From Clostridia bacterium (GTDB taxonomy: Bacteria; Bacillota; Clostridia; Christensenellales; Maliibacteriaceae), in the NCBI GenBank assembly GCA_017431145.1, contig JAFRLQ010000033.1, positions 1 through 64,000 of the forward strand: a DNA stretch of 64,000 nt, in the 5' to 3' direction. This document shows positions 16,840 through 42,264 of the stretch, in pieces. The notes beneath the pieces are model-generated. The model was not told where the DNA came from. It did no database searches and was given only the letters and a program-made list of their open reading frames with translations. The position numbers and the translations under genes are program-made. Numbering within the stretch: the stretch's first letter is position 1; each line of letters begins with the position of its first letter.

Positions 16840-18054
16840 TCAGGCTTCATCCAGCTGTTCGCGATACAGCTGTGCGAGGCCGCCGTGCGATGTTTCCCTG
16901 TATTTCTCGTTCATGTCAAGCCCTGTGCGGTACATGGTCGCGACCACATCGTCGAATGAGATCTTGCGTGTTGTGTATAGGAAGCGCGAGAGGTTGACAG
17001 CGCTCAGTGCACGCATCGCGGCAACGGCGTTGCGCTCGATGCACGGGATCTGCACGAGCCCGTTAACGGGATCGCAGGTGAGACCCAGATTGTGTTCCAT
17101 CGCGATCTCCGCCGCGTATTCGATCTGATCGATGTTGAGACCGAAAAGCGTGGCGACCGCTGCGGCCGCCATGGAGCAGGCGCTGCCGATCTCCGCTTGA
17201 CAGCCGCATTCCGCGCCGGAGATGCTTGCGTTCGTGCGGATCACGTTTCCGATCAGTCCCGCGACAGCGAGGGCGTCCAGGATCTCGTCTTCCGGGAAAC
17301 CTCTGTCATGGTGCATATAGTACAGGATCGAAGGAAGAACGCCGCAGCTCCCGCAGGTCGGAGCGGTGACGACGACTTTTTCCGAGGCGTTCTCTTCGCT
17401 GACGGCGTATGCGTATGCCGCGATCAGCCTGTTCATCGTTACGTCGGCACTCTCATTGTAGCAGCGTGTTTCAAAAAGCGTTTTTGCCTTCCGCTGGACA
17501 CCGAGCCCCCCGGGAAGCACGCCTTTCGCGGCAAGACCGCGCTCCACGGATTTTTCCATGGCGTGCCAGACCCGTCTCAGATATTCCCGCAGGGGATAGC
17601 CCTCCAGAATGTAGATCAGCTGAAGAATGCTGATGTTTTCCTGATTGCAGAGAGACAGGATCTCGGAGAAGTTCTTCTGCGGGTAGACTTCCTTGTCCTC
17701 ATCCGAGACCTCGTTCTCGATCCGGATCGATCCGCCGCCGATACTGAAGATGCGCGTCGAGGCGATCTCCTTCCCGTCTTTGAACGCTTTGAACAGCATG
17801 GTGTTCGGATGCGGAAGGTCCTTGATCTCCGTTTCGGTATCGAAGAGGATCTCCGCTTCCGGCAGGATCTCACGGATCGCCTTTGCCGTGCCGTGCCCTT
17901 CTCCCGTGAAGGCGAGAGAGCCGTACAGCGTCACCTGATAGGCGTCCGCGTCCGGATAGCGTCCGTGGAATTTGTGCGCGGCATGATACGGACCGACGGT
18001 ATGGGAACTGGACGGCCCGTTTCCGATCTTGTAAATGCTCGTGATGCTTTTCAT
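16840..18054 (-). CDS. sdaA: L-serine ammonia-lyase, iron-sulfur dependent, single chain
   Basis: 404 residues. Converts L-serine to pyruvate and ammonia using an oxygen-labile [4Fe-4S] cluster. The N-terminal beta domain begins with SIYKIGNGPSSSHTVGP, the C-terminal alpha domain holds the cluster cysteines in APTCGSCG, AECGCQAEIGSACS and TCDPVNGLVQIPCIERN. Both domains are in one chain, as in Gram-negative SdaA/SdaB, whereas many Bacillota use separate SdaAA and SdaAB. It lies 21 bp after the SstT-type serine transporter, forming an uptake-and-deamination operon. Ribosome binding site AAGGAAAT. Confidence 0.95.
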   Translation of the reverse strand: MKSITSIYKIGNGPSSSHTVGPYHAAHKFHGRYPDADAYQVTLYGSLAFTGEGHGTAKAIREILPEAEILFDTETEIKDLPHPNTMLFKAFKDGKEIASTRIFSIGGGSIRIENEVSDEDKEVYPQKNFSEILSLCNQENISILQLIYILEGYPLREYLRRVWHAMEKSVERGLAAKGVLPGGLGVQRKAKTLFETRCYNESADVTMNRLIAAYAYAVSEENASEKVVVTAPTCGSCGVLPSILYYMHHDRGFPEDEILDALAVAGLIGNVIRTNASISGAECGCQAEIGSACSMAAAAVATLFGLNIDQIEYAAEIAMEHNLGLTCDPVNGLVQIPCIERNAVAAMRALSAVNLSRFLYTTRKISFDDVVATMYRTGLDMNEKYRETSHGGLAQLYREQLDEA

Positions 18055-18075
18055 TTTTATTTCCTTCTTATGCCG

Positions 18076-19302
18076 TTACAGAGGCAGTTTCTTTCCTTCC
18101 TTCTTCCATTCCATGAACTCGGCAGTCGCCGTGAAGAGCACGTCGCCGGAGGAGTTCAGTGCGGTCTCCATGGAATCCTGGATCACGCTGACGATGAAGC
18201 CGACCGCGACGATCTGCATGGCGATGTCGTTCGGGATCCCGAACAGAGAACAGCCGAGGGGAACAAGGAGCAGGGAACCGCCGGCGACGCCGGATGCTCC
18301 GCATGCGGACAGGGTCGCGATGATGCTCAGAAGGATCGCCATGGGCAGCGTGACCTTGACTCCTGCGGAGTAGGCGGCAGTCAGAGCGAATGTCGTGATG
18401 ACCGCGGCAGCGCCGTCCATGTTGATCGTTGCGCCCAAGGGTATGGAAACGGAATACATGTCTTCATCCAGCCCCAGTTCCTCACACAGTTCCATATTGA
18501 CCGGGATGTTTGCGGCGGAACTTCTTGTGAAGAAAGCGGTGATGCCGCTTTGCCGTATGCAGCGGAAGACCAGAGGATAGGGATTGTGACGAAGCGCGAT
18601 CCCGACGATCAGCGGGTTCACGACCAGTGCGACCAGAAGCATCGATATGACAAGCACGATGACCAGTTCGCCGTAGGTGGTGAAGATCTCAAGACCGCTG
18701 GTGGAGACGGCTTCATACACGAGACCGAGGATACCGAACGGAGCAAAACTGATCACCCAGCGCACCACTTCGGACACCGCGTCGGAAATATCGCTCATGA
18801 CTTTCTTTGTGTGATCGGCTGCGCGTTTCAGCGCCAGGCCAAGAATGACTGCCCAGAACAGGATCCCGATGTAGTTGGCGGAGACCAGCGCTTCCAAAGG
18901 GTTGGATACGATGCGCATCAGGAAATCCTTCACGATCTCGCCCATGCTGGAAGGCGCGACAAAGCCCTGGGCGGCGTCCAGCCCTTTCAGGGAAAGCGTG
19001 ACCGGATGGATGAAGTTCACCAGGACCGCGACGATCGCGGCGGCAAGGGTGCTGACAAGATACAGAACGATGACTTTGGTGAACCTCGAGGAGTGGCCGC
19101 CTTTGGCATTTGCCAGAGAAGAGGAGACCAGTACAAAGACGAGGATGGGGGCGATCGCCTTCAAAGCCCCGACGAACAGTGTTCCCAGGATCCCGATCCA
19201 GGTCCATTTGGGAAGCGTCAGACCCAGGACCGCGCCGATGATCAACCCGATCAGGATCCGAAGGATCAGACTCGTTGAGTTCCATTTTTTGATCAGTTTC
19301 AT
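18076..19302 (-). CDS. sstT: sodium/serine-threonine symporter SstT
   Basis: A 408-residue DAACS-family transporter with about eight membrane helices plus re-entrant loops. Family motifs: FFTRSSAANIPVNMEL (serine-rich hairpin, unique to SstT-like members), PLGATINMDGAA (NMDG sodium/substrate site) and SACGASGVAGGSL. It imports serine and threonine with sodium. I start at the ATG at 19302 after GGAGGAAGCACTT; the alternative TTG at 19317 lies within that ribosome binding site. First gene of the operon with the serine dehydratase. Confidence 0.94.
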   Translation of the reverse strand: MKLIKKWNSTSLILRILIGLIIGAVLGLTLPKWTWIGILGTLFVGALKAIAPILVFVLVSSSLANAKGGHSSRFTKVIVLYLVSTLAAAIVAVLVNFIHPVTLSLKGLDAAQGFVAPSSMGEIVKDFLMRIVSNPLEALVSANYIGILFWAVILGLALKRAADHTKKVMSDISDAVSEVVRWVISFAPFGILGLVYEAVSTSGLEIFTTYGELVIVLVISMLLVALVVNPLIVGIALRHNPYPLVFRCIRQSGITAFFTRSSAANIPVNMELCEELGLDEDMYSVSIPLGATINMDGAAAVITTFALTAAYSAGVKVTLPMAILLSIIATLSACGASGVAGGSLLLVPLGCSLFGIPNDIAMQIVAVGFIVSVIQDSMETALNSSGDVLFTATAEFMEWKKEGKKLPL

Positions 19303-19689: not shown

Positions 19690-22600
19690 ATGCGCGATCA
19701 GGGGAAAAAAGTGCTGGCGGTCTGTCTGGTCATGCTGCTTGTCATGGCATGTCTGCCTGTACTGCATAAAGCGGTTGCGGAAGGCAGAGCGACTTTTGAC
19801 AGGGGAACGACGGTACGTGATGTTTGGATCTCGCTTGCCGGCGGGAAAAACAATGTAAAAGCGATCAGGCAGTATCCCGGCGCCTCCATGCCGGAAGGCG
19901 TGACTGCATGGACGGTTTCTTTTTCGGGATCGCAGGTTCCGATCTATTCATGGTTCGAGGACGGGACGATCTATTACTGGTCCGAGGATCCGCGTCCCCG
20001 CACCAATGCGGACGCGAGCTATATGTTCTACAGTTTCAGCGAAGCGGCATTCATCGACGCGGCGCCTTTTGACACTTCGGGAACGACGGATATGGAGGGG
20101 ATGTTCGGCGACTGTGACAGTCTTGAAACGCTGGATGTCAGCGGATTCGACACGACGAATGTCAGATGCATGTACTGCATGTTCATCTACTGCGGAAAAC
20201 TGAAAGAAATCGATGTCAGTCATTTCAATACGACCAACACGACAAGCATGTCCGATTCGGGCTACGGCAGTCTCTGCGGAATGTTCCTCGGATGCTCCAG
20301 CGTCAAGGTGCTGGATCTTTCCAGTTTCGACATGACACAGACTTCCTGGCCTTACCATACCCAGAATATGTTTCCCGGCTGTACGAGCCTTGAAAAACTG
20401 ATCCTCGGTCCGCAGAACCGGTTCAACGGCTACACATCGCTCAGCGGCAGTTGGACGCATGAAGGGGATGGTGTGACTCTTTCCGGTTCCGCATTGACTT
20501 CGCAGTACAATTCGACGAACGCATTCAGTTACTCGGGCACATGGCTGCGCAATATGCCCGAGGGGCATTATTACCGCACAGACGGGAGCCTCGGCACGTC
20601 GAACCTGTGGGAAGTCCATACGCCGGACGACCGGTTCAAGGGCTACTGTCTCAACCTGAACAAATTCGGCGTCGCGGAGGAACTTGACCGTGTGCTCGCG
20701 GAAGACGATTCCGCGATCCTGGAACTTTTGTGCACACAGTCCGAGGGAAGTGTTCACGGCTCTTCGCCGCTGGGCGCCAATATGCGCGAAGCGCTCATCA
20801 CACTGATCTATTACGGATGGCCGAACGACGCCGCCGGGATCCAGGCCAAATACGGCCTTTCGGATCAGGAATACATGGAGATCACCCAGAATGCCGTCTG
20901 GGATTTTACGGACCGATATGACGAGCCTGCCGGACCGTCTCTTTATGAAGGAAACAGTCTTGCGGCATACAATGCGCTCGTTTCTCAGCGCTATGCGAAT
21001 ATCGAGGGGAAATACATCCTTTTCCTCTACAAATCATGGGATCCGTCCAAACAGAACCTTTTGTCCATCATGGGCGTCGACGATCAGGAATACGGCGGCG
21101 TGTCCGTGCGCAAACAGAACAAAGACGGGTCGGAGAAACTGGCGGGAGCTGTGTTTACCGTCTATGACGAAGAGGGTACGGAAGTCGGCACAATGACGAC
21201 GTCCGCGGACGGCGTCGCCTTTATCTGCAGGACGGACCACACGGCGGGACTTCCGCTTGGCAAATACACGGTACGGGAGACTGAGCCCCCCGCCGGTTAT
21301 TATCTGTCGGATGTCGAGTATCATTTTGAGATCACTGAGGCAAATGAGATCGTGACAACCGGCTGGCGGATGGATCCCGTGAGCGGTACGGTCGAAGAAG
21401 AGATGATCTTTTACAACGACCATGACGACACCTATTCAGGCGGCGGGATCGGCATTATCAAGAAATCGGACACGGGAAAGATGCTCGGCGGCGCGACGTT
21501 CAGGATCTATGACGCGGAAGGGACCGAGGTCGCGAGTCTCGTGACGAACGATTCCGGCGTCGCAGCGACCGGAAAACAGGATCTGCCTCTTGGTACTTAT
21601 ACGGTCAAAGAGACCGACGCGCCTGAAGGGCATATGATCATGGAAGGGGAAAGGACCGTTGAGATCACCCAGAACTTCCAGTTTTTGACGCTGACGTTTG
21701 AGAACAGGGAGAAGACCGGGTCCGTGACGCTCGAGGCGCAGAAGATCCTGGAAGGAGAAGGCGCAAAACTGGAGGAGGGACAGTTCACGTTCCAGCTTCT
21801 TGACGAGCGCTACAATGTGATCCAGGAAGCGTCGAATGACGCAAGCGGCAGAGTCGTATTCAATACGATCTCCTATACGCCCGACGATCTTGGATATAAG
21901 AATTACCACATCATCGAAGTGATCGGGGACGACGATACGATCCGCTATGACCGGCATCAGGAGGATGTGACCGTAACCATTTACGATACAGGCACATCGC
22001 TCGACTGCACGGCGATCTATGATTCGGACGGCGCTGTCTTTACGAATACGACCGATGCCGAGAGATTTGAGATTCAGGTGCTGAAGCGCAAACTAAATAC
22101 GGATGAGGCAGTCGAGGGTGCCGTGCTGGAGGTGCGGGATGCTTCCAACCGCCTGATCGAGAACTGGGTCACGGACAGCGGACCGCACACGCTGAAACTG
22201 GATCCGGGACAGTATGTCCTGCGGGAGATGACCGCGCCGAGGGGCTACTATGACTTCGAGGATATCCGGTTCGAAGTCGCTGAAGACGGGAAACTGACCT
22301 CCGGCAGCGACGCGGCGGTGATCTCGGGAAGTGAAATGACAGTGTGGGATGAAGCGATCCCATCAACACAGCTCCCGATCCGCAAAACGGACGCAGAGAC
22401 CGGAGCGGTCCTGGAAAACGCGGAATTCACGCTTGAGGGGCAGAACGGAAGCAGTTATCACGCAGTCGAAACGACAGGTGCGGACGGAAGCGCCGTTTTC
22501 ACCGGGTTGGAGACCGGTACGTATACGCTGACGGAAAGCGCGGCGCCGGAGGGATATCAGGCGCAGGGCGGACCCTGGACGGTGGAAGTCATCTACAAAA

Positions 22601-23823
22601 AGGGAATATCCAAAACAGGAAACATCAACACGCACGGCGCGTCGGCAGGCGAGTATTCCAACGCGCAGGTCAATGAAACGGTCACGTGTCCGGGCGCTGA
22701 GACCATACATGTGGAACTGAGATATCAGACGGAAGACGGATACGACTATCTGCTGCTTCTGGATAAAGACGGGAAAGTGATCACGCAGGATAAAAACGGA
22801 AGCGCGATCGGTGACACGCGCGCATCCTACCGCGGCTATATCTGGGGCGGACTGGACAGCGGACAGATCAGAACGCTTTCCTTCGATCTTGAAGGAGATA
22901 CCGTGACGTTCCGGTTCGTTCCGGATGCCAACTTGGGAGGCTACGGGTATTACGCCGTGGTGACGGCGGAATCGCGCATCAGCGTGACGGACGCATCCGG
23001 CGAACGGGTCGACCCGGAAGACGGCGTATATTCTTTCGAGAACAGAAAGATCCAGGGGACAGAACTTCAGTTTTCCGGAACGAAAACGATGACAGGCCGT
23101 GAACTACAGGAAGGGGAGTTCCGGTTCACGCTGACAGGATCCGACGGAACGCAGGAGACGGTGACGAACGACGCACAGGGCGGATTCGCATTCTCACGGA
23201 TCGTGTATGAGGAAAGCGGTACATTCACTTATGAAGTGAAGGAAGAGCCTTGCGACGATCTGGAAGTGGTCTACGATCCCACGGTCTATCAGATCACGGT
23301 CAAAGTGACGCAGAAGGAAGACGGAAGTCTGGAAGCGGAAGTGATCGGCGCGGATCCGGAAGCGCTTGATTTCACGAACACCTGTCTGTCCGGAAGCCTG
23401 AAGATCATGAAAACGGTAAACGGCGACCTTGCGGACAGTGACCGTGCCTTCACCTTCCAGGTCCAGCTGAGCGCGGAAGGAACGTTCAATTGTACGGGCG
23501 ACTGGTCCGGAACGATCCAGAACGGCGGTACGCTGAAACTGAAGCACGGACAGTCGGTCACGATCACGGGACTGCCCGAGGGATGCACGTTTAAAGTGAC
23601 GGAACTTGACGGCGCGGGATATCAGATGAGCGCGGGCGGAGATTCCGGAACGATCAAAGACGATACGGTCAGTGTGGCATCCTTTGTCAATACAAAGAAC
23701 AGTGTGCCGGATACCGGAGATGGCAGCCGCATCATCGCGCTGAGCGCAGCGGCAGTCTGTGCGGTCCTCGGCATGACCGGGCTTGTACTATTCAGGAGAA
23801 AAAGGAACGGAGCATTTTCCTGA
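19690..23823 (+). CDS. giant surface adhesin: BspA-like repeats, thioester domain, CnaB/pilin-type repeats, VPDTG anchor
   Basis: A 1377-residue secreted wall protein. Order: signal peptide (1-30); BspA/DUF285-type repeats (about 70-240, e.g. MEGMFGDCDSLETLDVSGF); a thioester domain with C320 (GYCLNLN) and Q400 (TQNAVWDF), the Cys-Gln pair that can form a covalent bond to host amines; CnaB/SpaA-type isopeptide domains near 450-545, 560-640, 750-840 and 855-930 (each ending YTVRETEPPAGY-like); pilin-type isopeptide domains near 645-740 and 1085-1180; a DUF5979-like domain near 1190-1330; sorting signal VPDTG (1339-1343), hydrophobic helix and RRKR tail. It would project from the wall and bind surfaces covalently. 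No sortase gene is in the window. ATG follows GGAGG. Confidence 0.93.
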   Translation: MRDQGKKVLAVCLVMLLVMACLPVLHKAVAEGRATFDRGTTVRDVWISLAGGKNNVKAIRQYPGASMPEGVTAWTVSFSGSQVPIYSWFEDGTIYYWSEDPRPRTNADASYMFYSFSEAAFIDAAPFDTSGTTDMEGMFGDCDSLETLDVSGFDTTNVRCMYCMFIYCGKLKEIDVSHFNTTNTTSMSDSGYGSLCGMFLGCSSVKVLDLSSFDMTQTSWPYHTQNMFPGCTSLEKLILGPQNRFNGYTSLSGSWTHEGDGVTLSGSALTSQYNSTNAFSYSGTWLRNMPEGHYYRTDGSLGTSNLWEVHTPDDRFKGYCLNLNKFGVAEELDRVLAEDDSAILELLCTQSEGSVHGSSPLGANMREALITLIYYGWPNDAAGIQAKYGLSDQEYMEITQNAVWDFTDRYDEPAGPSLYEGNSLAAYNALVSQRYANIEGKYILFLYKSWDPSKQNLLSIMGVDDQEYGGVSVRKQNKDGSEKLAGAVFTVYDEEGTEVGTMTTSADGVAFICRTDHTAGLPLGKYTVRETEPPAGYYLSDVEYHFEITEANEIVTTGWRMDPVSGTVEEEMIFYNDHDDTYSGGGIGIIKKSDTGKMLGGATFRIYDAEGTEVASLVTNDSGVAATGKQDLPLGTYTVKETDAPEGHMIMEGERTVEITQNFQFLTLTFENREKTGSVTLEAQKILEGEGAKLEEGQFTFQLLDERYNVIQEASNDASGRVVFNTISYTPDDLGYKNYHIIEVIGDDDTIRYDRHQEDVTVTIYDTGTSLDCTAIYDSDGAVFTNTTDAERFEIQVLKRKLNTDEAVEGAVLEVRDASNRLIENWVTDSGPHTLKLDPGQYVLREMTAPRGYYDFEDIRFEVAEDGKLTSGSDAAVISGSEMTVWDEAIPSTQLPIRKTDAETGAVLENAEFTLEGQNGSSYHAVETTGADGSAVFTGLETGTYTLTESAAPEGYQAQGGPWTVEVIYKKGISKTGNINTHGASAGEYSNAQVNETVTCPGAETIHVELRYQTEDGYDYLLLLDKDGKVITQDKNGSAIGDTRASYRGYIWGGLDSGQIRTLSFDLEGDTVTFRFVPDANLGGYGYYAVVTAESRISVTDASGERVDPEDGVYSFENRKIQGTELQFSGTKTMTGRELQEGEFRFTLTGSDGTQETVTNDAQGGFAFSRIVYEESGTFTYEVKEEPCDDLEVVYDPTVYQITVKVTQKEDGSLEAEVIGADPEALDFTNTCLSGSLKIMKTVNGDLADSDRAFTFQVQLSAEGTFNCTGDWSGTIQNGGTLKLKHGQSVTITGLPEGCTFKVTELDGAGYQMSAGGDSGTIKDDTVSVASFVNTKNSVPDTGDGSRIIALSAAAVCAVLGMTGLVLFRRKRNGAFS

Positions 23824-29246: not shown

Positions 29247-29681
29247 ATGAAAAAAAGGGAAGCTTTGAACACGCAGGCAATGAATGAGAAACTGAAGGGA
29301 GATGTCTTTCCGTCAGATTGGGAGGACTTCTTGGATGAGGATATTCGTTCCTTTTTTGATGAACTGCTGTTTGAGAGCGGGCAGAAAAAAAGCGAGATCA
29401 TACAGAAGGCGAACATTCCCCGTACCTACGGGTATCAGCTGATGGAAGGCCGCAGAAAAGGAAAAAGGGATTATTACATCCTGATCGGCATCGCGATGGG
29501 GCTTGACCTGAAGACGGTACAGCGGATGCTGGCGGTCACCAAATGCGGCGGACTGCATTCACTGATCAAGCGGGACGCGGCGATCATTTTTGCCATCAAC
29601 CACGGGTACGATCCGATCCGGACATATGATTTTATGTGCGCGGTCGGCGTCGATCCGCTGGATGACGGAACAGAAATCTAA
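29247..29681 (+). CDS. small helical protein with HTH-like core, first gene of the glycosyltransferase-kinase locus
   Basis: 144 residues, cytosolic. Residues 40-85 (SEIIQKANIPRTYGYQLMEG then RDYYILIGIAMGLD) read like an XRE-type helix-turn-helix core, and the rest is helical (MLAVTKCGGLHSLIKRDAAI). I infer a regulator or kinase-partner role from the adjacent kinase and pseudokinase genes; this is not proven by any motif. Starts after AGGTGAG. The next gene begins 90 bp later on the same strand, with no terminator between them. Confidence 0.65.
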   Translation: MKKREALNTQAMNEKLKGDVFPSDWEDFLDEDIRSFFDELLFESGQKKSEIIQKANIPRTYGYQLMEGRRKGKRDYYILIGIAMGLDLKTVQRMLAVTKCGGLHSLIKRDAAIIFAINHGYDPIRTYDFMCAVGVDPLDDGTEI

Positions 29682-29771
29682 AAAAAATAGATTTGTATGC
29701 ACAGAGCAAACCGGACCGAATCATTTCTGCTTTATCGTACAGATAAGGCCGAACAGACAGGAGTTTATTCA

Positions 29772-31028
29772 ATGGAAAGATTCATGAGACATTTCAGACG
29801 CTGGATGAGTATCGGACTCATCTGCATTCTTTTCGTGCTGCAGGGCTGCAGAGCCGGATCCAGGATCGATCCGTCCGCGAAGGAGATCGCGAAACAGTCC
29901 GCTGCCGCCGGTTTTCTGGCGTCGCTGGTCGAAAAGAATTCCGGTTTCATCGGCAGCAACGAAAAAACAGAGCAGGCCTACTTGTACGACAATGCCATCA
30001 CGCTGTATGCGCTTTCGGAAGCCGGGGCAGTGTGGCACGCGGAAAAACTGGCGGATGCGATCGTCTATGCGCAGGAACATGATCGGACTTTCCATGACGG
30101 AAGGCTGAGGAATGTGTATCTGTGCGGTGATCCCAGCGTTGATTCGGGACGTTCTGCCGCACGTGAGACGGTACCGCTCCCCGGTTTCTGGCGGAACGGA
30201 AAGTGGCAGGAAGATTATTATGCGGTCTCCACTTCGACCGGAAATATGGCGTGGACGATCCTCGCCTTGTGCAAGGCTTCGCAGATCGTGTCAGAGGAAA
30301 AAAGCGCTGCGTATGTGGCCGCAGCAGCGCGTGCCGCGGATTTCCTGCTTGAATTGGCTGCAGAGGAGGAAGGGTTCACCGCAGGATATGAAGGCTGGGA
30401 CGAAGTGCAGACGAAGGTCAAGTATCAGTCCACGGAGCACAATATCGCGCTGACAGCTGCGTTCACCGTACTGGCGGACGCCATAGAGGGCACGGACCCA
30501 CAGAAAGCCGAAGCGTACAGAGAGGCGGCCGGATCCGCTTACGCGTTTGTCCGGTCCATGTACGATCCGGATCTGCACTGCTTTTATACCGGAACGGAGG
30601 AGGACGGGACGACGGTCAATCAGGGCGTGATCCCGCTGGACGCAACTGCATTGTCCGTGCTTGCGTTCGGTGACGAGGCGGGCAGTGCAAAAGATATGCT
30701 CGACTTTGTGAAAACGAGCATGGCGGTCGGTCCGGGATTTGATTTCAGCGCCGGAGACCTTGACGGCATATGGAACGAAGGAACGGCGCAGATGGCGCTG
30801 TGCTATCTGGAACAGGGAATGCAGGACGAGTATAACGCGACGATGGGTTATCTGAAGACGCAGGAATATACGGACGGCGGAATCCCCGCTGCGGACAGGG
30901 ACGGCGTTTCCACCGGGTTTGTTCTGAGCGGTACGGAGGAACTCTGGGAGTACGATAACGAGCTGAGCATCGGCGCGACAGGATGGTACGCGCTGGCGCA
31001 GCTGCAGGTCAATCCATTGGTGCACTGA
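29772..31028 (+). CDS. lipoprotein with (alpha/alpha)6-barrel glycosidase-like fold
   Basis: 418 residues. Lipobox VLQGCR places the lipidated cysteine near residue 26. The rest consists of repeated helix pairs with aromatic/acidic loops typical of six-hairpin glycosidases (TGNMAWTILALCKAS; YDPDLHCFYTG; IPLDATALSVLAFG; GIWNEGTAQMALCYLEQG). Conserved catalytic acids cannot be assigned. I start at the ATG at 29772 after ACAGGAG; the frame is open 25 codons upstream. Its position 15 bp before a processive-type glycosyltransferase gene parallels the glycosidase partner (BcsZ) of cellulose-synthase operons. Confidence 0.72.
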   Translation: MERFMRHFRRWMSIGLICILFVLQGCRAGSRIDPSAKEIAKQSAAAGFLASLVEKNSGFIGSNEKTEQAYLYDNAITLYALSEAGAVWHAEKLADAIVYAQEHDRTFHDGRLRNVYLCGDPSVDSGRSAARETVPLPGFWRNGKWQEDYYAVSTSTGNMAWTILALCKASQIVSEEKSAAYVAAAARAADFLLELAAEEEGFTAGYEGWDEVQTKVKYQSTEHNIALTAAFTVLADAIEGTDPQKAEAYREAAGSAYAFVRSMYDPDLHCFYTGTEEDGTTVNQGVIPLDATALSVLAFGDEAGSAKDMLDFVKTSMAVGPGFDFSAGDLDGIWNEGTAQMALCYLEQGMQDEYNATMGYLKTQEYTDGGIPAADRDGVSTGFVLSGTEELWEYDNELSIGATGWYALAQLQVNPLVH

Positions 31029-31042
31029 TGGCATAAACCGGA

Positions 31043-34000
31043 ATGAAAAAGAGAAAGTCTTCACAAAAGCATATACCGGAAAGCCTGGGGAATACGGTAT
31101 GCGGCGTCCGGCCGCATGTGTTCGCCCTGCTTCTGAATGCTGTGATCCATGTGCTGATCTGTGTTGCCTACGGCATACCGGCGAATCAGCTCTGGCGGTT
31201 CGTGCTGTCTTTCTTTTTCTTTATTTATCCCTTCTCCTTCGTGACGGATGTGCTCTGGTCCATGCGCCCGTCTGTCAGACGCATTCTGACCGGCGAAACG
31301 CGGATCAACAGGAAACACTATATGAATACCGCAAGGAGACAGGTCGAATCGGGACAGCTGCTCCCGGTCACGATCAGCATCCCGGTATACACAGAGGAAA
31401 ATGCGGTCATCTTTGAGACCCTCAGACAGAGTCTAGCCGCAGTGCGCAGCTATCGCGCATACAGCTCCAGAGAGGCAAATGTTCTCGTGTCCGAAGACGG
31501 ACTGGCGCCGCTGATGGGCGGGATCTGTACAAAAGAGAGCGTAGAGCGCCTCGTCCGCGCGTTTCACAGCGATCCGAAGAGCCTGACGCCGCAGGAAAGA
31601 AAGGCGGCGCAGCGGATCCTGTTTTACAGGGAAAACGGCATCGGTTTCATCGCGCGGCCTGCGAAAAACAGAGCGGGACTGTTCAAGAAAGCATCCAATC
31701 TGAATTACACGCTGCGGTTCGGCGATCTTGCGGCAAGAGGGATGGAATACGCCGCGGATGAAGTGGAAGCAAAGCTTTTTGAGGCGGGATATGCGGAGGG
31801 AGACTGCCGCACGCATGAGATCATTCTTTTGATGGACAAGGATTCCGGCATCAGGGAGGGGATCCTTGAATCCGTGGTGCCGGAGTTTGCCTTTGATGAA
31901 CAGCTGGCATACGTGCAGTGTGCGACCAGAACGGTGAATCTGCGTGAAAACTACTATTCCAGAGCGACCGGGCATCTGACCAACGAACTGTTTCAGTTTA
32001 CATGGCCGAGCAAAGCGCTGCAGGGATTCTTCGTGCCGCTTGCGGGGCATAATGTCATGATCCGGAAAAGTGTTCTGGAAAGAAGCGGCAGGTGGTCGGA
32101 AAACAAGGTGTCCGAAGATTTCGACCTGGCGATTCGCCTCTACGCAATGGGCTACCACGGGAAGTACGCCAAGATCTCAGGTCTGGAATTCACGGAGTAC
32201 GCCAGTACGCACTTTGCGGAGGAAACGGGGAAACAGCGCAGATATGCCTACGGTCTGTTTGAAATGATGTTCGACGGAACCGTAAAGGCAGGCAGAACGC
32301 GGCCGTGCGATTTGCTGTTTATGATCCTGTACTTTTTCTCGATCGTCAACCAGGTGCTGCTTCTTCCGACCGTATTCTTCGAGTGCTATTTCGGAAACAT
32401 CCATCTGCTTTGGGCGGGATTTCTGCTGTGCGACGCCTGTTTCATCCTGCTTCCATGGATCAGAGGGCTGGTCATGGGAAGAAACGTGCCGGGAGAGTAC
32501 CGCATCAGCGTGATCAGTACGCTGGAAGTGGCGATCTCGTTCATCTGTCATTCGCTGTCGATCCTGTCCGGGGCAGTCACCTGGCTCCTGAACAAGTTCA
32601 GACGCAGAAAGCGCGCGTTTCCCTCGACCCGGGTAGGAGAAAACGACAGAGGAATCCGCGCGGGCATCAGGACGGTCATCGGATATATCCGCGGAACGTG
32701 GATCTTCATTCCGGTAGTCGTGCTCAGCGTAGACAGACTCTTCTATGTCATGACAAGACACGGTATCGGTACGGAATCCCGCATCGCATACAGCTTTATC
32801 TTTTTCAGTCTGGTCCTCGCGCCGGTCCTTTTCACGCCTGCTCTTTTCGGGGCCGGCCAAAAGGCGCAGAGGCAGGAAAGAAAACGCATATCTCAAAAGG
32901 ACGGACAGACTGGCAGGAGGTGGATCATGGAACCTTCCATTCCGGAAGTCATGGAAACTGTTCCTGAAAAGGAACTCACGGAGGATGCCGCTGCATTCCT
33001 GAAAGGATACGATGCGTATCTGGCGGGTGAGGTGGCGGATGCGGAATTCCCGCGGGAGATCACGGATTCCTATGCAGTGGCGGGATGCCTGAAGAAAGAA
33101 GAGGACGGACGGAAGGAGACATGGTCTCTGAGGCGTCTCTCGGACGGGCTGCCTGCGATCCTTCGCATAACACACGACTATGCGCAGGAGGACGCTCTGG
33201 ACGAGGCGGAAATACTGAGCCGCCTGAATCATCCGGGGATCCCCAGGGTATATGCTTCCTTCGAAAAAGGCGGCTGGCATTACCTGATACGCGAGTATAT
33301 CGAAGGAAACACGCTGGACAGGATCGTTGAGAGAAAGGGTCCGCTGTCCGAAGAGGATGTTTTCAGGGTCGCGCAGGAATTGAGCGGGATCCTGAAGTAT
33401 CTGCACGGACAGTCACCGCCTGTGATCCACAGGGATATCAAACCTCAGAACATCGTGCTGGGAAGGGACGGAAGCATCCATCTGATCGACTTCGGCATTG
33501 CGAGGACCCATAAAACGGGACAAAGACAGGATACGACTGTCGTACTGACACTGGACTATGCACCGCCGGAGCAGTACGGGTTTGACCAGTCGTCACCATT
33601 GACGGACATTTATGCGTTCGGAGTCGTGATGCTGTACTTGGCGACAGGCCAGGCGGCAAAACCGTCGCTTGAATCGGAGATCGTCAGCAACGATCTTCGC
33701 AGTCTGATCCGAAAATGCATCGCGTTTGATCCGCGTGACCGCATCCAGAGTGTGAACGAGATCGAACGGATGATCAGACGCAGGGCAAGAAAGCGTGCGG
33801 GAAAATATCTGAAAGTTGCGGGAATCGCGGCGGCGCTGGGTATTGTTGTTTTCGCGTTTTATGCCGCGGGAACGCTGACCGGTATCCGAAACGGAGACAG
33901 CTTGGGATACAGGACGGGGTACGATCAGGGTTATGTGGACGGATACAGAAACACGCCGATCCTCAGCCTGGGAGAAAGACCCGCGCCACCCAAAGACGGG

Positions 34001-34642
34001 AACCTGGCGTCAAATCTTCTGACGCCTTACGGCGCATACGCGCTGGAGTACGAGGACAATATCTATTATGTCCAAGACGGTGACATATTCAGAATGAAGG
34101 CGGACGGAACGGATGCGGAGTTGTTTGTCCGGGACGGATCCGCGGCAGGGATCAGCGCCTATAACGGCTGGCTGTATTATTCCTCGGAGTCGGATATCAT
34201 ACAGGTCAGCGTATACAACGGAGACGGGAACATCACGTACGGCGGGACAGACGGCTATCTGACCGTACTGGATGAAACCTACTATATCGTTACACCGGAA
34301 GAAGTGTATCTGTTCGATCTTTCAGACTGGTCGATCACACCGGTATCCTCCTCTTTGATAACGGATTATGCGCGCCGGGATGTGCCGGAGGAGGTGCTGG
34401 AACTCGTGGATGCGCAGAAACCGGCTCAGTACGGATACGGGAGCAGAGGAACGGTCATGCTCGACGGATATGATTCGCTGCTCTGGATGAGTGATCCGGA
34501 AGGAAGCATCAGATACAGGGTAACGAAAAACAGGGTGGAGGATTTCAATATCGCAGGAGAATGGATCTTCTATCACAACCTGGATGACGGGGGCAGCCTG
34601 TGGTGTGTCCGCTATGACGGAGCGGATGACCATAAGGCATGA
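31043..34642 (+). CDS. fusion of GT2 glycosyltransferase, Ser/Thr protein kinase and extracytoplasmic DUF5050-like domain
   Basis: 1199 residues. Residues 25-75: two membrane helices. 105-420: GT2 catalytic domain with ED152, DKD (D265/D267), SED (E358/D359) and KQRRY (397-401) in place of the Q(Q/R)xRW of processive synthases. 425-620: about five membrane helices. 690-900: eukaryotic-type kinase with HRDIKPQN (D798), DFG (816-818), APPEQYG and DIYAFGV; the usual VAIK lysine position reads AILRI (R708). About 930-950: another membrane helix, then GY-xx repeats and a beta-propeller-like DUF5050-type domain to the end. I infer glycan synthesis and export controlled by the attached kinase. No frameshift or stop separates the parts. 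Weak ribosome binding site; probably coupled to the upstream gene. Confidence 0.88.
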   Translation: MKKRKSSQKHIPESLGNTVCGVRPHVFALLLNAVIHVLICVAYGIPANQLWRFVLSFFFFIYPFSFVTDVLWSMRPSVRRILTGETRINRKHYMNTARRQVESGQLLPVTISIPVYTEENAVIFETLRQSLAAVRSYRAYSSREANVLVSEDGLAPLMGGICTKESVERLVRAFHSDPKSLTPQERKAAQRILFYRENGIGFIARPAKNRAGLFKKASNLNYTLRFGDLAARGMEYAADEVEAKLFEAGYAEGDCRTHEIILLMDKDSGIREGILESVVPEFAFDEQLAYVQCATRTVNLRENYYSRATGHLTNELFQFTWPSKALQGFFVPLAGHNVMIRKSVLERSGRWSENKVSEDFDLAIRLYAMGYHGKYAKISGLEFTEYASTHFAEETGKQRRYAYGLFEMMFDGTVKAGRTRPCDLLFMILYFFSIVNQVLLLPTVFFECYFGNIHLLWAGFLLCDACFILLPWIRGLVMGRNVPGEYRISVISTLEVAISFICHSLSILSGAVTWLLNKFRRRKRAFPSTRVGENDRGIRAGIRTVIGYIRGTWIFIPVVVLSVDRLFYVMTRHGIGTESRIAYSFIFFSLVLAPVLFTPALFGAGQKAQRQERKRISQKDGQTGRRWIMEPSIPEVMETVPEKELTEDAAAFLKGYDAYLAGEVADAEFPREITDSYAVAGCLKKEEDGRKETWSLRRLSDGLPAILRITHDYAQEDALDEAEILSRLNHPGIPRVYASFEKGGWHYLIREYIEGNTLDRIVERKGPLSEEDVFRVAQELSGILKYLHGQSPPVIHRDIKPQNIVLGRDGSIHLIDFGIARTHKTGQRQDTTVVLTLDYAPPEQYGFDQSSPLTDIYAFGVVMLYLATGQAAKPSLESEIVSNDLRSLIRKCIAFDPRDRIQSVNEIERMIRRRARKRAGKYLKVAGIAAALGIVVFAFYAAGTLTGIRNGDSLGYRTGYDQGYVDGYRNTPILSLGERPAPPKDGNLASNLLTPYGAYALEYEDNIYYVQDGDIFRMKADGTDAELFVRDGSAAGISAYNGWLYYSSESDIIQVSVYNGDGNITYGGTDGYLTVLDETYYIVTPEEVYLFDLSDWSITPVSSSLITDYARRDVPEEVLELVDAQKPAQYGYGSRGTVMLDGYDSLLWMSDPEGSIRYRVTKNRVEDFNIAGEWIFYHNLDDGGSLWCVRYDGADDHKA

Positions 34643-36207
34643 TGAAAAGGACGGAATCTATGCGGAAAACAGCGATACAATTTACGGAAGGAAAACGCAT
34701 GTCGCTTGCGCAGATCATTGCGTCCGGCGGCCCGATGAAGCCGCGCAGGGCAATGGAGATCGCAAGAGCGCTGTGCGGAAGACTGAGAGAAGAAACAGAC
34801 AAAACGGATGCCGGGCTGCCTGTGCTCCATCCGCAGGCTGTTCTTCTGTCTCCCGAGGGGACGATTGCCTTCTCGAAGACACCCGTTCCGGATTCTGCAA
34901 AAGAGATATACCTTCCCCCGGAGTACATCAGAGGCGTCACTTCAAGAGAAAGCGTTTCGATCTACGGACTGGGGATACTGCTTTTGTTCCTCGTTACGGG
35001 GAAGACGAGGAAAACACAAACAGACGCCGGGATCAGGAACCGGGCTTTGAAGACGGTGATCGACCGGTGCACATCGATCGATTCAAGGCGGCGCTTCCAG
35101 AGCCTGCATGAAGTCTACGCGTACCTCAACAGGGAACTCAGATTTCCGAGAAAGCGTATGCTGGGCATCCTGCTTGCGCTGGTCCTCTGTATCGCCGCGG
35201 CTGTCTCGGTTCATCTGTTCATCAGGGGCAGAACGCAGGGCGAAGCCGAGGGAAATGAGACAGGGTACAGAAACGGATACGGAAACGGTTATGAAGCAGG
35301 GCTTTCAGACGCGCCGGGGATCGGAATTGAAGATACGAAAATGCCTGAGATGTACGGGAATTTCCCAGGCAACCTGAATGCGGAGAACGGCGCGTTCGCT
35401 GTCAGCGGCGGTGATTATCTGTATTACGGAAATCAGGGCCGTCTCTGCAGAATGGATCCGTACAGCGGGGAGGTATCCGTACTTTGCGAGCATGAGACGG
35501 TCTCCGGGCTGAATTATTGGGACGGCAGCCTGTTCTATCTGACAGAGAATGCGCTCGTCAGAATGGATCCCGAAAGCGGAGAGGAAGAGACGGTCACCGA
35601 GAACATCGGCGGCAGATTCTGCATCTATAACGGAACATTGTTTCTTGAAGACGAAAAGAGTACGGGATACTTATACAGCATCGATGCGCAGACGCTGGAG
35701 ATCAGACAGCTGAACGGCGGAACGGTCCACGATGCATTGAACGTGGCGGAAGCGAGCCTGTACTACGCGGATCCCGATAAAAACGGATACCTGTTCCGCA
35801 GCGATTATGACGGAGGGAATGCGGTCAGACTTCTGAGCAAACCCTGTATAGATCTGGACCTTTGCGGCGGGAGCGTGTACTGCCTCACATCGGACGGAGA
35901 AGAGAACGGCAGCATCGACATTCTGACGCATATGAACCAGGAGGGCGGCGACGCGGAAGCGGTGACCGGCAGACCTGTCAGGAGGTTTGTCGCGACAGAA
36001 AATGGAATCTTTTATCTGGATGCCGTGTCCGGCCAGCTTGAATGGATGACACCGGACGGTGATACGAGATACACGGTCTGCGCCGAGCGGATCGAAGAAT
36101 TCAACGTTGCGGGAAGGTGGATCTTCTTCAGGAAAACGGGAGAGAACGCACTGTACCGTATGCGACTGGACGGGTCCGACATCGCCAGACTGTCTTCAGT
36201 CGAATAG
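34639..36207 (+). CDS. membrane pseudokinase with extracytoplasmic DUF5050-like propeller
   Basis: 522 residues. Residues 20-165 are the remains of a Ser/Thr kinase: the catalytic loop reads LHPQAVLL where HRDxKPxN is expected, the DFG region reads AFSKT, but the APE-like LPPEY and the SIYGLGILLLFLVTGK helix are kept. A membrane helix follows (about 172-195), then GYRNGYGNGYEAG repeats and a DUF5050-type repeat domain (about 230-520). The gene overlaps the GT2-kinase stop by 4 bp (ATGA), so the two are coupled. ATG 34660 after AAAAGGACGGA is an alternative start. A non-catalytic partner or sensor for the upstream kinase is the likely role. Confidence 0.85.
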   Translation: MMKRTESMRKTAIQFTEGKRMSLAQIIASGGPMKPRRAMEIARALCGRLREETDKTDAGLPVLHPQAVLLSPEGTIAFSKTPVPDSAKEIYLPPEYIRGVTSRESVSIYGLGILLLFLVTGKTRKTQTDAGIRNRALKTVIDRCTSIDSRRRFQSLHEVYAYLNRELRFPRKRMLGILLALVLCIAAAVSVHLFIRGRTQGEAEGNETGYRNGYGNGYEAGLSDAPGIGIEDTKMPEMYGNFPGNLNAENGAFAVSGGDYLYYGNQGRLCRMDPYSGEVSVLCEHETVSGLNYWDGSLFYLTENALVRMDPESGEEETVTENIGGRFCIYNGTLFLEDEKSTGYLYSIDAQTLEIRQLNGGTVHDALNVAEASLYYADPDKNGYLFRSDYDGGNAVRLLSKPCIDLDLCGGSVYCLTSDGEENGSIDILTHMNQEGGDAEAVTGRPVRRFVATENGIFYLDAVSGQLEWMTPDGDTRYTVCAERIEEFNVAGRWIFFRKTGENALYRMRLDGSDIARLSSVE

Positions 36208-36340: not shown

Positions 36341-36730
36341 ATGGAAAACATCCTTTTGATCAGATTCAGTATCGAAAAACTGAACGAGCTTCCGGGACCG
36401 TATGCATTCCAGAAAGGATTCCTTGTAGGAAAGGCGGTGCCGGAGAGGTTTCTGAAAGGCTTGAAGGTGTTTGAGGGGGACACGCTGAAAACGCTTCAGG
36501 GTGAGGAGTATGTCACATTTGTTGCGATCGAAGGTGACTATGCGCTGCTGAAGGAAGAAATTGAACCCAGGATCGTTCTGAATGAAAGCATCGCGCAGAG
36601 AAAAGCGGAGCCGCTGGTCAGGATCGTAAATGAGATCAGAGGACCGATATCTGAAGTGAATCTGGCACAGGACGGAAGCGGAACGGAAAGCGAATGGTGC
36701 ACCAAGGGATTTCTCTATGCATGGAATTGA
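36341..36730 (+). CDS. hypothetical protein, 129 residues
   Basis: A soluble alpha/beta-looking protein without signal or membrane helix. No family recognised. GGAGGAACAG precedes the ATG. It follows the pseudokinase gene on the same strand after 133 bp that contain a palindrome, so it may be separately controlled. It could still be part of the glycan locus. Confidence 0.65.
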   Translation: MENILLIRFSIEKLNELPGPYAFQKGFLVGKAVPERFLKGLKVFEGDTLKTLQGEEYVTFVAIEGDYALLKEEIEPRIVLNESIAQRKAEPLVRIVNEIRGPISEVNLAQDGSGTESEWCTKGFLYAWN

Positions 36731-36812: not shown

Positions 36813-37685
36813 ATGGAAAGCAGATTTTGCAGTAAATGCGGAGCCCCGTTGAATCCGGGCGCAAAGTTCTGCGCGAAATGCGGCGCAGCAGTTATAAACA
36901 AAGCGGACATACCGGAACCTGCGATGACGGGTCAGCCTGTACAAATGCCGCAGCAGATACCGGATACAGTGACACAGGAACCATTCGTTCAGCCGCAGAT
37001 GAACGCTGAACCTGCCGCTGAGAACAGGAAGAGCAAAAAGAAGAAATGGGTGATCCTTTCAATCATCCTTGCCGCTGTGCTCGTAATGTTCGTGATACCC
37101 GGAACGATCGCACTCATCATTCGAAGCCAGATCAGAAAACACAGCGGACCTGTACCACCAACATCGTTTGCTCAGACTGCGGAAGCAGAGCGCGACGAGG
37201 AAGAAGAGGAAGAAGAGAATGCAGCGGTAGACGCGAACTTCCCGGCAGGTGACTACAGCGGAGAAGTTGACGAAGACGGTGAGGATTCAGACGGCCTGAA
37301 ACTTCCCGTTGCGGGTCCGGGCGAAAAAGTATATATCGGTTACGGCGAGCTTGAGGGAATCGGCCTGACAAAAATGGCCTTGGTTCTGTCGGAAGACAGG
37401 CAGAGCGTGCATGATATCGTGATCCTTCTGGATGGTATCAGCAGTCCGCTGGGTGGCTATAATGTTATGTTCTCCAATATGCAGACAAGTACGACGACAG
37501 AATATGATCTGCCTGCGACAGATGAAACTCTGGGGCAAAGTACGATTAAGGATATGCATATGGAAGGAGATTACATCTATGTGCGGTTGGATTATGTCTT
37601 TACAAACATCTCATTTGGCACATCAACTCAGGACCAGACGATTCCTTTGGGTGAAACGGAAATCTGGCTGAGAGAAGCAGGTTAA
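36813..37685 (+). CDS. zinc-ribbon membrane protein
   Basis: 290 residues. N-terminal zinc ribbon with CSKCG (residues 6-10) and CAKCG (21-25), a Pro/Gln-rich linker, a basic stretch (KSKKKK), one membrane helix (about 78-105), an acidic linker (EEEEEEEN) and a C-terminal beta-rich domain (about 150-290) outside the membrane. This layout, cytosolic zinc ribbon plus external domain, is common in Bacillota of the gut, but its role is unknown. Ribosome binding site GGAGG. Confidence 0.75.
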   Translation: MESRFCSKCGAPLNPGAKFCAKCGAAVINKADIPEPAMTGQPVQMPQQIPDTVTQEPFVQPQMNAEPAAENRKSKKKKWVILSIILAAVLVMFVIPGTIALIIRSQIRKHSGPVPPTSFAQTAEAERDEEEEEEENAAVDANFPAGDYSGEVDEDGEDSDGLKLPVAGPGEKVYIGYGELEGIGLTKMALVLSEDRQSVHDIVILLDGISSPLGGYNVMFSNMQTSTTTEYDLPATDETLGQSTIKDMHMEGDYIYVRLDYVFTNISFGTSTQDQTIPLGETEIWLREAG

Positions 37686-40575: not shown

Positions 40576-42264
40576 ATGTTTTGTAGTTCATGCGGCAACC
40601 AGCTTCCTGACGGTGCAAGATTCTGCCCCAAATGCGGCGCGTCCCAGCAAGCAGTGGATGTGGAGGCGATTAGAAAGCCGGAAACTGTTTCTAACCCTGT
40701 GGCTTCTCAGCCGGCAAATGTACGTAAAACGGACACGAAAAAAACCAAACTGCCTTTGATCCTGGGTCTTGCGGGCGGCGGTGTTCTGATGGTCGCTCTG
40801 GCCGTGATTCTGGCAGTAGTTTTGATCGGCGGCAAAGGAGGCAGTAAAGGAAACAATTATGTTATCGTGGAAAATCCCGTCACCTATGTGGTGGATCAGG
40901 ATGATTTCTTTGGTGAAGAACACTATCTTATCGCTTCCGACGGCAGACAAATGAGTCTGTACCACGGCGCGCCTGACACCATGATAACCGGCATGGAAAG
41001 CGGCTTTTTCCTGGATCGCCCGGATGACGCGGAATGGGGGACGGAGGAATATGATCGTCAAAGCCTGTATCATTACGGAAAAGACGGACTTGATCTGATC
41101 GCTGAAGATGTCCTTTACATACGTGATTCTGCGGACGGTACAGCGGTAGTTTACGCAACAACAGCGGGAATGATTTCGAGTTTTGATCAGACGCCTGTCC
41201 ATATTCATGTCTGGAAGGATGGAAAAGACATGGATCTTGGCATGCTGGACAATTTTGATCAGTTCTGTATTTCTCCGGATGGTTCTTCGGTATTCTTTGC
41301 AGGTGAGGACGCTATTGAATACATCGCAGAGATCTGGACCGACGGGAAACGTGTCGAAACACTGGAAGATTTCGAAGAATCTGCGGTCATAGCGCTCTCA
41401 AACGACGGGAAAACACTGTTCTACTACAATAACGACTTTGACCGTCTGTATGCTTATGACAGCGGTGAGGAGATTCTCCTCGGCAGACAGGATTACTTTC
41501 AGTTCTCACCGAAGTATTTCAACGATGACTGCAAACAGATCCTGTTTGTCTGTGACGATGAAACCTATGTCTGGAATCAGGGAGACGATGATGCAACGCA
41601 GGTAGCGGACGAGGCGTTGTATCTGATTACACCTGCACATACACGCTTGTGGGGTATTTCGGTTGATACGTTCGAGCATTTTGTCGGTGTCAAAAATTTC
41701 CGCGACATCTTTTTACAGAACAACGATTCGGAATGCTATTATCTCGACAGCAAACTAGAACTTCATTCTGTGATCAGTGGCTACAGTATGCTACAGCTCG
41801 CAGATGATGGGAAAACGATTGTGGTCGCAAGACGGAACAATCTTTTCAAGTTTGACGGAACAAAAGAACATGATGATCTTGAAGATTCGATTGTCGCGGA
41901 TGATGTCGTAGGCTTTCAGATGACACCGGATGCAGAGGACATCTATATAATCGATGATTATAACGATCTGTATTATGTACAGAGTCCCGGGAAGACCGCG
42001 CTTCTTGCGGAAAGCCTTGTGAATCCGAATTTTCAATATCCTGCCGCAAGTATGGATTATCGCGGACGTCTGTATTTTATAAGTGACGATGAACTGCATT
42101 ACGCGGTGAAAGATACCGTTCAGACAGTTGAAGGGTTCGAAGGAACACCATCAGGAGTTTTTCCTTCCGGAAGTGTCATCTTTGTCCATAGCGATGTCGA
42201 TTATGATGTTTACCGTTATGCGGTTCTTCCGGATGATACGATAATGCTGTCCAGTATCTGGTAA
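40576..42264 (+). CDS. zinc-ribbon membrane protein with beta-propeller-like external domain
   Basis: 562 residues. Zinc ribbon CSSCG (3-7) and CPKCG (18-22), a basic linker, one membrane helix (about 60-84), and a long repetitive domain (about 95-562) with WD40/TolB-type blades (e.g. QFCISPDGSSVFFAG, AVIALSNDGKTLFYYN). It probably senses or binds something outside the cell. The layout resembles the zinc-ribbon protein at 36813, though the external domains differ. Ribosome binding site AAAGGAG. A 20-bp-stem terminator follows. Confidence 0.78.
   Translation: MFCSSCGNQLPDGARFCPKCGASQQAVDVEAIRKPETVSNPVASQPANVRKTDTKKTKLPLILGLAGGGVLMVALAVILAVVLIGGKGGSKGNNYVIVENPVTYVVDQDDFFGEEHYLIASDGRQMSLYHGAPDTMITGMESGFFLDRPDDAEWGTEEYDRQSLYHYGKDGLDLIAEDVLYIRDSADGTAVVYATTAGMISSFDQTPVHIHVWKDGKDMDLGMLDNFDQFCISPDGSSVFFAGEDAIEYIAEIWTDGKRVETLEDFEESAVIALSNDGKTLFYYNNDFDRLYAYDSGEEILLGRQDYFQFSPKYFNDDCKQILFVCDDETYVWNQGDDDATQVADEALYLITPAHTRLWGISVDTFEHFVGVKNFRDIFLQNNDSECYYLDSKLELHSVISGYSMLQLADDGKTIVVARRNNLFKFDGTKEHDDLEDSIVADDVVGFQMTPDAEDIYIIDDYNDLYYVQSPGKTALLAESLVNPNFQYPAASMDYRGRLYFISDDELHYAVKDTVQTVEGFEGTPSGVFPSGSVIFVHSDVDYDVYRYAVLPDDTIMLSSIW

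Follow-up and report, generated by a model that had tools for sequence, protein, structure and literature searches.

Can the synthesis of a bacterial surface polymer be governed by a receptor kinase that forms a single chain with the synthase itself? This question is raised by a 64,000-nucleotide stretch of DNA from a Clostridia bacterium (GenBank assembly GCA_017431145.1, contig JAFRLQ010000033.1, positions 1 to 64,000; hereafter the window), in which an earlier examination without database searches (the sequence-only reading) had noticed a glycosyltransferase (GT) and a Ser/Thr kinase fused in one membrane protein. Among the bacterial polysaccharide synthases compared here, control of synthesis runs through cyclic di-GMP (c-di-GMP). 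We find that the fusion belongs to a conserved gene module, and we give somewhat better than even odds (about 55%) to this module making a polysaccharide by a synthase-dependent route, with a BcsA-like processive GT that a receptor Ser/Thr kinase controls in cis.

Domain layout and topology of the fusion protein

The gene is a single open reading frame of 1199 aa that runs, as had been claimed, without interruption from an ATG at window position 31043 to a stop at 34642. A domain search, which the sequence-only reading had proposed as a check, returned three Pfam families, all above their curated cut-offs: Glyco_trans_2_3 (PF13632, residues 260-464, E = 7.5e-26), Pkinase (PF00069, residues 715-890, E = 1.1e-35) and DUF5050 (PF16472, residues 984-1078, E = 1.7e-10). 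Together with the topology, these matches agree with the earlier description of a GT2 domain, a kinase with HRDIKPQN and DFG motifs, a further membrane helix and an outside propeller in one chain. The motifs of the protein (SEDG 150-153, DKD 265-267, SED 357-359, KQRRY 397-401, HRDIKPQN 796-803 and DFG 816-818) are nearly all invariant across 19 aligned orthologues.

Topology was assigned from hydropathy and flanking charge (the positive-inside rule), with BcsA for comparison. The hydrophobic stretches lie at residues 27-45, 53-71, 424-442, 455-473, 490-512, 552-570, 585-603 and 925-943; the membrane helices noted earlier are therein recovered, save that stretch 490-512, flanked by basic residues at either end, probably lies as a helix at the cytoplasmic interface and does not fully span the membrane. 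Because eight Lys/Arg residues precede helix 925-943, we infer from the positive-inside rule and from BcsA that the kinase is cytoplasmic and the propeller external.

The synthase part resembles BcsA

The AlphaFold2 model of residues 1-628 (predicted local distance difference test score, pLDDT, 78.5; predicted template-modelling score, pTM, 0.81) finds its best PDB match by Foldseek in BcsA (4p00, E = 5.8e-16). Further matches are hyaluronan, cyclic glucan (8rf9), plant cellulose and chitin synthases, and 8rf9 has the highest template-modelling (TM) score among the matches listed (0.55, query-normalised). According to the model, the N-terminal part adopts the GT-A fold of processive synthases, on which the sequence-only reading had staked its proposal, along with channel-forming helices. 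The synthase motifs reported by that reading are all present, and DKD and SED are invariant in the orthologues; its equivalent of QxxRW has to be corrected to [KR]QxRY, with K or R replacing Gln, neither Gln nor Trp being kept. An FxxT motif (F526-T529) follows the interface helix, and matches in position the FxVT gating loop of BcsA. The Pfam scan of the fusion gave no PilZ match, and the kinase occupies that place after the last channel helix, so that the contrast drawn earlier with PilZ-controlled synthases is upheld by a kinase and an external propeller in the same chain. The cellulose synthase model TIGR03030 scored 21.8 bits against a cut-off of 699, and no BcsB was seen beside the fusion gene.

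The kinase and the propeller

The kinase part best matches the PASTA-type receptor kinase group. The Pfam scan of the fusion found no PASTA repeats, and the PASTA kinase equivalog NF033483 reached 127 bits against a cut-off of 450, the kinase part alone being matched. At the columns checked, HRD, DFG, the catalytic Asn, the PE residues and the activation-segment threonines T831 and T836 are invariant in all 19 sequences.

The C-terminus is assigned by sequence comparison to an external DUF5050 beta-propeller: the profile of the related propeller domain of the pseudokinase family (see below) matches a solved seven-bladed propeller, 3s25 (E = 3.6e-11). Directly outside the membrane helix, both the fusion and the pseudokinase carry G-rich GxxxGY-type repeats. 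Compared with most orthologues (L011, L020-L035), the window and locus L018 have a propeller that is some 60 columns shorter. The gap falls at window 34340-34480 (residues about 1100-1145), and the sensor may have changed.

Distribution and origin of the fusion

A scan of 84,980 species genomes for the GT part yielded 21 loci, which, minus two duplicates (L019 = L011, L029 = L015) and plus the window, make 20 distinct genomes. The survey of GT2-Pkinase fusions suggested earlier thus finds the fusion in 20 distinct genomes, with the frame intact in 18 (it is broken after the kinase in L017 and within the GT part in L033); two of the records, L026 and L034, are without the label of metagenome-assembled genome (MAG). 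Its carriers are at least 20 bacteria of gut, mouth and digester. The 19 aligned orthologues are 47-68% identical to the window protein; Pkinase and the GT2 family are matched in 19/19 aligned members and DUF5050 in 18. The GT part is rare, being found in 2/396 genomes of the order, 3/391 of the class and 1/398 of the phylum (its own genome counted each time), and a search of viral contigs for it gave no relatives.

In a tree with 22 separate kinases, the fused kinases form one clade (support 100/99), which is most simply read as the fusion having arisen once. The GT tree supports the fused group at just 67/55, and the branch of locus L016 is too long there to place its GGDEF-EAL fusion (see below) inside or outside the kinase-fused clade. 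Copies in Actinomycetota records fall within the Bacillota set, one of them (L034) on a 550-kb scaffold, which suggests transfer between phyla; for L021 and L033 misbinning is possible.

A conserved module around the fusion

The sequence-only reading was right about the fusion but missed the proteins encoded around it: a small helix-turn-helix (HTH)-like protein, a lipoprotein of glycosidase fold and a pseudokinase twin (Table 1). Gene order is identical in 20/20 fused loci: HTH-like protein, lipoprotein, GT-kinase-propeller fusion, pseudokinase-helix-propeller protein. In the window, 14 bases lie between the lipoprotein gene and the fusion downstream of it, and the stop of the fusion and the pseudokinase start overlap (ATGA).

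The pseudokinase protein, present in 20/20 fused loci, can be aligned over its whole length with the part of the fusion that runs from the kinase hinge to the C-terminus (profile comparison, E = 3.4e-94), and its gene therefore duplicates that half of the fusion. Its C-lobe matches PknB and keeps a PPE motif; the N-lobe, HRD and DFG have been lost.

The lipoprotein, kept in 20/20 fused loci and in 3/4 of the related loci without a kinase, has a signal peptide with an LQGC lipobox. Since its comparison with PDB sequences gave chance-level matches alone, its fold was modelled: the AlphaFold2 model (pLDDT 90.5) shows an (alpha/alpha)6 barrel and, among PDB structures, comes closest to glycosidases (TM about 0.6, 12-14% identity). 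Eight Asp/Glu residues are invariant across 22 lipoprotein sequences. It matched no Pfam family at E 0.001, GH8/BcsZ included, with which it shares just the (alpha/alpha)6 fold.

The HTH-like protein, which has no match in Pfam or NCBIfam, is present in 20/20 fused loci and is 63-81% identical in the 14 aligned. Its family is matched in 32 of 291 genomes searched within the class. A Ser/Thr kinase lies within about 1.5 kb of the HTH homologue in 23/29 loci as against 4/76 control windows (Fisher p 7e-14), a conservative comparison because all four control matches are the same gene for a kinase with leucine-rich repeats, found downstream of the module in related genomes. The window's own genome holds a further such HTH-kinase pair, at C77. 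Since the family usually neighbours Ser/Thr kinases, the HTH protein is by its genomic associations kinase-linked, and transcription is a likely second output. Loci of the kinase-adjacent family are window 29247-29681, L048:1969-4030 and L049-L077.

Table 1. Genes of the module and parts of the fusion protein, in window coordinates
Feature	Position	Strand	Basis
Small HTH-like protein, 144 aa, first module gene	29247..29681	+	HTH by sequence reading alone
Lipoprotein, (alpha/alpha)6-barrel glycosidase fold (modelled)	29697..31028, start probably 29772	+	Signal peptide, model
Fusion protein: GT2 synthase, kinase, membrane helix, propeller	31043..34642	+	Pfam, orthologue alignment
Synthase part, residues 1-604: 2 N-terminal helices, GT-A domain, interface helices, 4 C-terminal membrane helices (predicted)	31043..32854	+	PF13632, AlphaFold2/Foldseek, topology
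Ser/Thr kinase domain, about residues 670-910	33050..33772	+	PF00069; invariant HRD, DFG, PE, T831, T836
Single membrane helix, residues 925-943	33815..33871	+	Hydropathy and charge
External DUF5050 beta-propeller (predicted), residues about 982-1199, shortened in this genome	33986..34639	+	PF16472
C-lobe-only pseudokinase, membrane helix, GxxxGY repeats, DUF5050 propeller	34639..36207	+	Profile comparison with fusion

Relatives without the kinase

Four related synthase loci lack the kinase (L016, L036, L037 and L045), and all four also lack the HTH protein and the pseudokinase. The GT of L016 is 37% identical across the GT part and shares its chain with a GGDEF domain (weak match) and an EAL domain (strong match). 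In L045 (3282-10052), an unfused GT and a lipoprotein are accompanied by a membrane histidine kinase, whose start overlaps the stop of the GT, then by a response regulator and another histidine kinase. L036 has an unfused GT, a lipoprotein gene upstream of it and, on the opposite strand, a hybrid histidine kinase; L037 has an unfused GT alone. Because relatives such as L016 and L045 carry other signalling modules, the GT-lipoprotein pair is by gene content the core of the system, to which an exchangeable signalling part (receptor kinase, GGDEF-EAL or two-component system) is joined. In the genome of the window, GGDEF is matched once, and weakly, and PP2C phosphatase three times; Ser/Thr phosphorylation is therefore available in this organism and c-di-GMP signalling sparse.

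At L016:7574-13005, the lipoprotein that accompanies the GT carries a fused glycerophosphodiester phosphodiesterase (GDPD), and a sulfatase-fold gene (PF00884) lies upstream. These neighbours hint at a phosphoglycerol-modified polymer in that locus.

How might the synthase be controlled?

The sequence-only reading had proposed a glycan synthase whose activity is set by an external signal. Control of synthesis by a signal is indeed favoured, because the kinase follows the channel helices and the same synthase pairs elsewhere with other signalling modules. Under such control, a signal at the envelope would most likely pass from the propellers of the fusion and the pseudokinase to the kinase, and from there to the synthase (and the HTH protein), each of these arrows being conjectural. 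On the evidence of sequence and model, the kinase lies in the cytoplasm after the last channel helix, at the place of PilZ in BcsA, with its extra helix leading to the external propeller. The fusion and its pseudokinase twin probably heterodimerise through the GxxxG-type repeats beside the membrane, and their propellers may sense something at the envelope that alters the activity or the conformation of the kinase, which would open or close the synthase, either by phosphorylating it or by conformation. The kinase may act also on the HTH protein, as the putative controller of the operon; gating of the synthase is probably accompanied by such a transcriptional output. The lipoprotein, to judge by its modelled fold, its lipoprotein signal and its constant pairing with the synthase, could trim or release the polymer, like the BcsZ-type hydrolases of other systems. 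That this adds up to an undescribed class of synthase under direct in-cis control by a receptor kinase and its pseudokinase twin, with propellers sensing the outside and phosphorylation replacing c-di-GMP gating, is a proposal to which we give slightly less than an even chance.

Several points weigh against kinase control of the synthase. At the position of the beta3 Lys, the window kinase has Arg (R708), as do 13/19 sequences including the window, with Lys in 6/19 (L022 and L026 among them), and no GxGxxG glycine loop is seen in the fused kinase, so that its activity may be low or absent; on the sequence evidence as a whole, activity is plausible, not certain, and to this extent the earlier proposal of control by phosphorylation is weakened. 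No phosphosite can be named in the synthase, because none of its Ser/Thr residues is conserved solely in the fused forms. The candidate S77 was dropped, being Ser in the unfused L045 too. Nor can the polymer be named, as the likeness to BcsA, hyaluronan synthase and cyclic glucan synthase and the motifs do not decide between products. While the parts of the module and their conservation come from sequence and models, phosphorylation, sugar transfer and ligand binding are steps that we infer. The HTH association, moreover, suggests transcription as a serious alternative or additional role, making up at least part of the output.

In its strict form, this last alternative would make the HTH protein the sole real substrate of the kinase, with the synthase or the growing polymer as the sensor input whose state is reported to transcription. 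The frequent adjacency of HTH homologues and Ser/Thr kinases (also at C77) speaks for it, as does the occurrence of HTH protein and fused kinase together in 20/20 loci and the absence of both in the 4/4 unfused ones. A separate kinase would, however, suffice for transcription, and the strict fusion in 20 genomes, together with the GGDEF-EAL domains at the same position in L016, suggests that proximity to the synthase matters. We regard the strict form as unlikely, although it is compatible with, and does not exclude, control of the synthase by the kinase.

The features of the N-lobe described above raise a second alternative, namely that the fused kinase is inactive or an ATP-binding scaffold which, together with the C-lobe-only pseudokinase, would act as a conformational lever from propeller to synthase with no phosphorylation. 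Yet HRD, DFG, the catalytic Asn and the activation-segment Thr have remained invariant over deep divergence in the fused kinase while the twin lost them, and the nearest separate kinase, L051, carries Lys at the beta3 position, so that an active design underlies the family; we think a mere lever quite improbable. Lastly, an artefact of assembly or gene prediction joining two genes, an eventuality that the sequence-only reading itself had raised and that the fragmented window genome (148 contigs) and the broken frames of L033 and L017 might recall, can be dismissed and misassembly as the origin of the fusion is refuted, because the fusion recurs in 20 genomes with the junction intact in 18 independent assemblies, two of the carriers having no MAG label.

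Neighbouring genes

Upstream of the module, window 19690-23823 encodes a 1377-aa adhesin-like surface protein with a thioester domain, four SpaA repeats, isopeptide (FctA) domains and a weak LPXTG anchor. Downstream, a small open reading frame (36341-36730) has homologues in the C-terminal part of DUF805 membrane proteins, which lie near the module elsewhere. Two zinc-ribbon membrane proteins are encoded near the module at 36813-37685 and 40576-42264, the latter with a long external part that reads as propeller-like. The related genomes of L022, L023, L025 and L032 encode, downstream of the module (at about 17300-19150), another kinase, this one with leucine-rich repeats on the outside.

Comparison with known systems

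The sequence-only reading knew of no described system with this architecture, and our search of the open-access literature likewise found no description of a synthase-kinase fusion; in the main text of a classification of 993 prokaryotic kinases, the term 'glycos' does not occur (PMC2877116). The module thus suggests a mode of turning surface polymers on or off for which that literature has no description.

The closest structural parallel is with BcsA (4hg6, 4p00), with which the fusion shares a processive GT-A core, the DxD motif, the ED catalytic base, an R-aromatic motif, an FxxT gating-loop-like motif, four C-terminal channel helices and a cytoplasmic regulatory domain after the last of them. 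It differs in having a Ser/Thr kinase, a helix and an external propeller instead of PilZ and c-di-GMP, in the absence of BcsB beside it, and in sequence (about 15% identity). Like the Pss system of Listeria (PMC4125290) and the Pel system of Bacillus cereus (PMC7112168), the module would be a Gram-positive polysaccharide system under post-translational control, and Pss also includes a separate putative glycosidase (PMC4125290). Those systems, however, have no kinase, and their receptors are degenerate GGDEF proteins separate from the synthase, PssE and PelD, which bind c-di-GMP (PMC4125290, PMC7112168).

With the PASTA-type kinases PrkC, StkP and PknB, the fusion has in common a cytoplasmic Hanks-type kinase, one helix and an external sensor domain, but it has a propeller in place of PASTA, an attached synthase and an atypical N-lobe. 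The cyclic beta-1,2-glucan synthase CGS, to which the synthase model bears the likeness in fold noted above, also joins a synthase with an (alpha/alpha)6 carbohydrate enzyme; it is, by contrast, one giant chain with no kinase, and the product of the fusion is not to be read from this likeness. A further comparison is the L016 relative, of the same synthase subfamily and with the same lipoprotein partner, which has a c-di-GMP-type domain where the fusion has its kinase, a lipoprotein fused to GDPD and the PF00884 gene upstream.

One synthase core has thus been combined in evolution with a receptor kinase, with GGDEF-EAL domains or with a two-component system, the link to the kinase being covalent in 20 genomes. 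The module also connects Ser/Thr kinases across Clostridia with an HTH family of which little is known, and it provides an example of a bacterial receptor kinase that comes with its own pseudokinase partner. Should the kinase gate the synthase, a single protein would provide the route from an outside signal to a surface polymer, with the substrate tethered to its kinase and hence easily tested. Synthase and kinase are each of a known kind; what is new is their covalent combination, accompanied by a pseudokinase twin.

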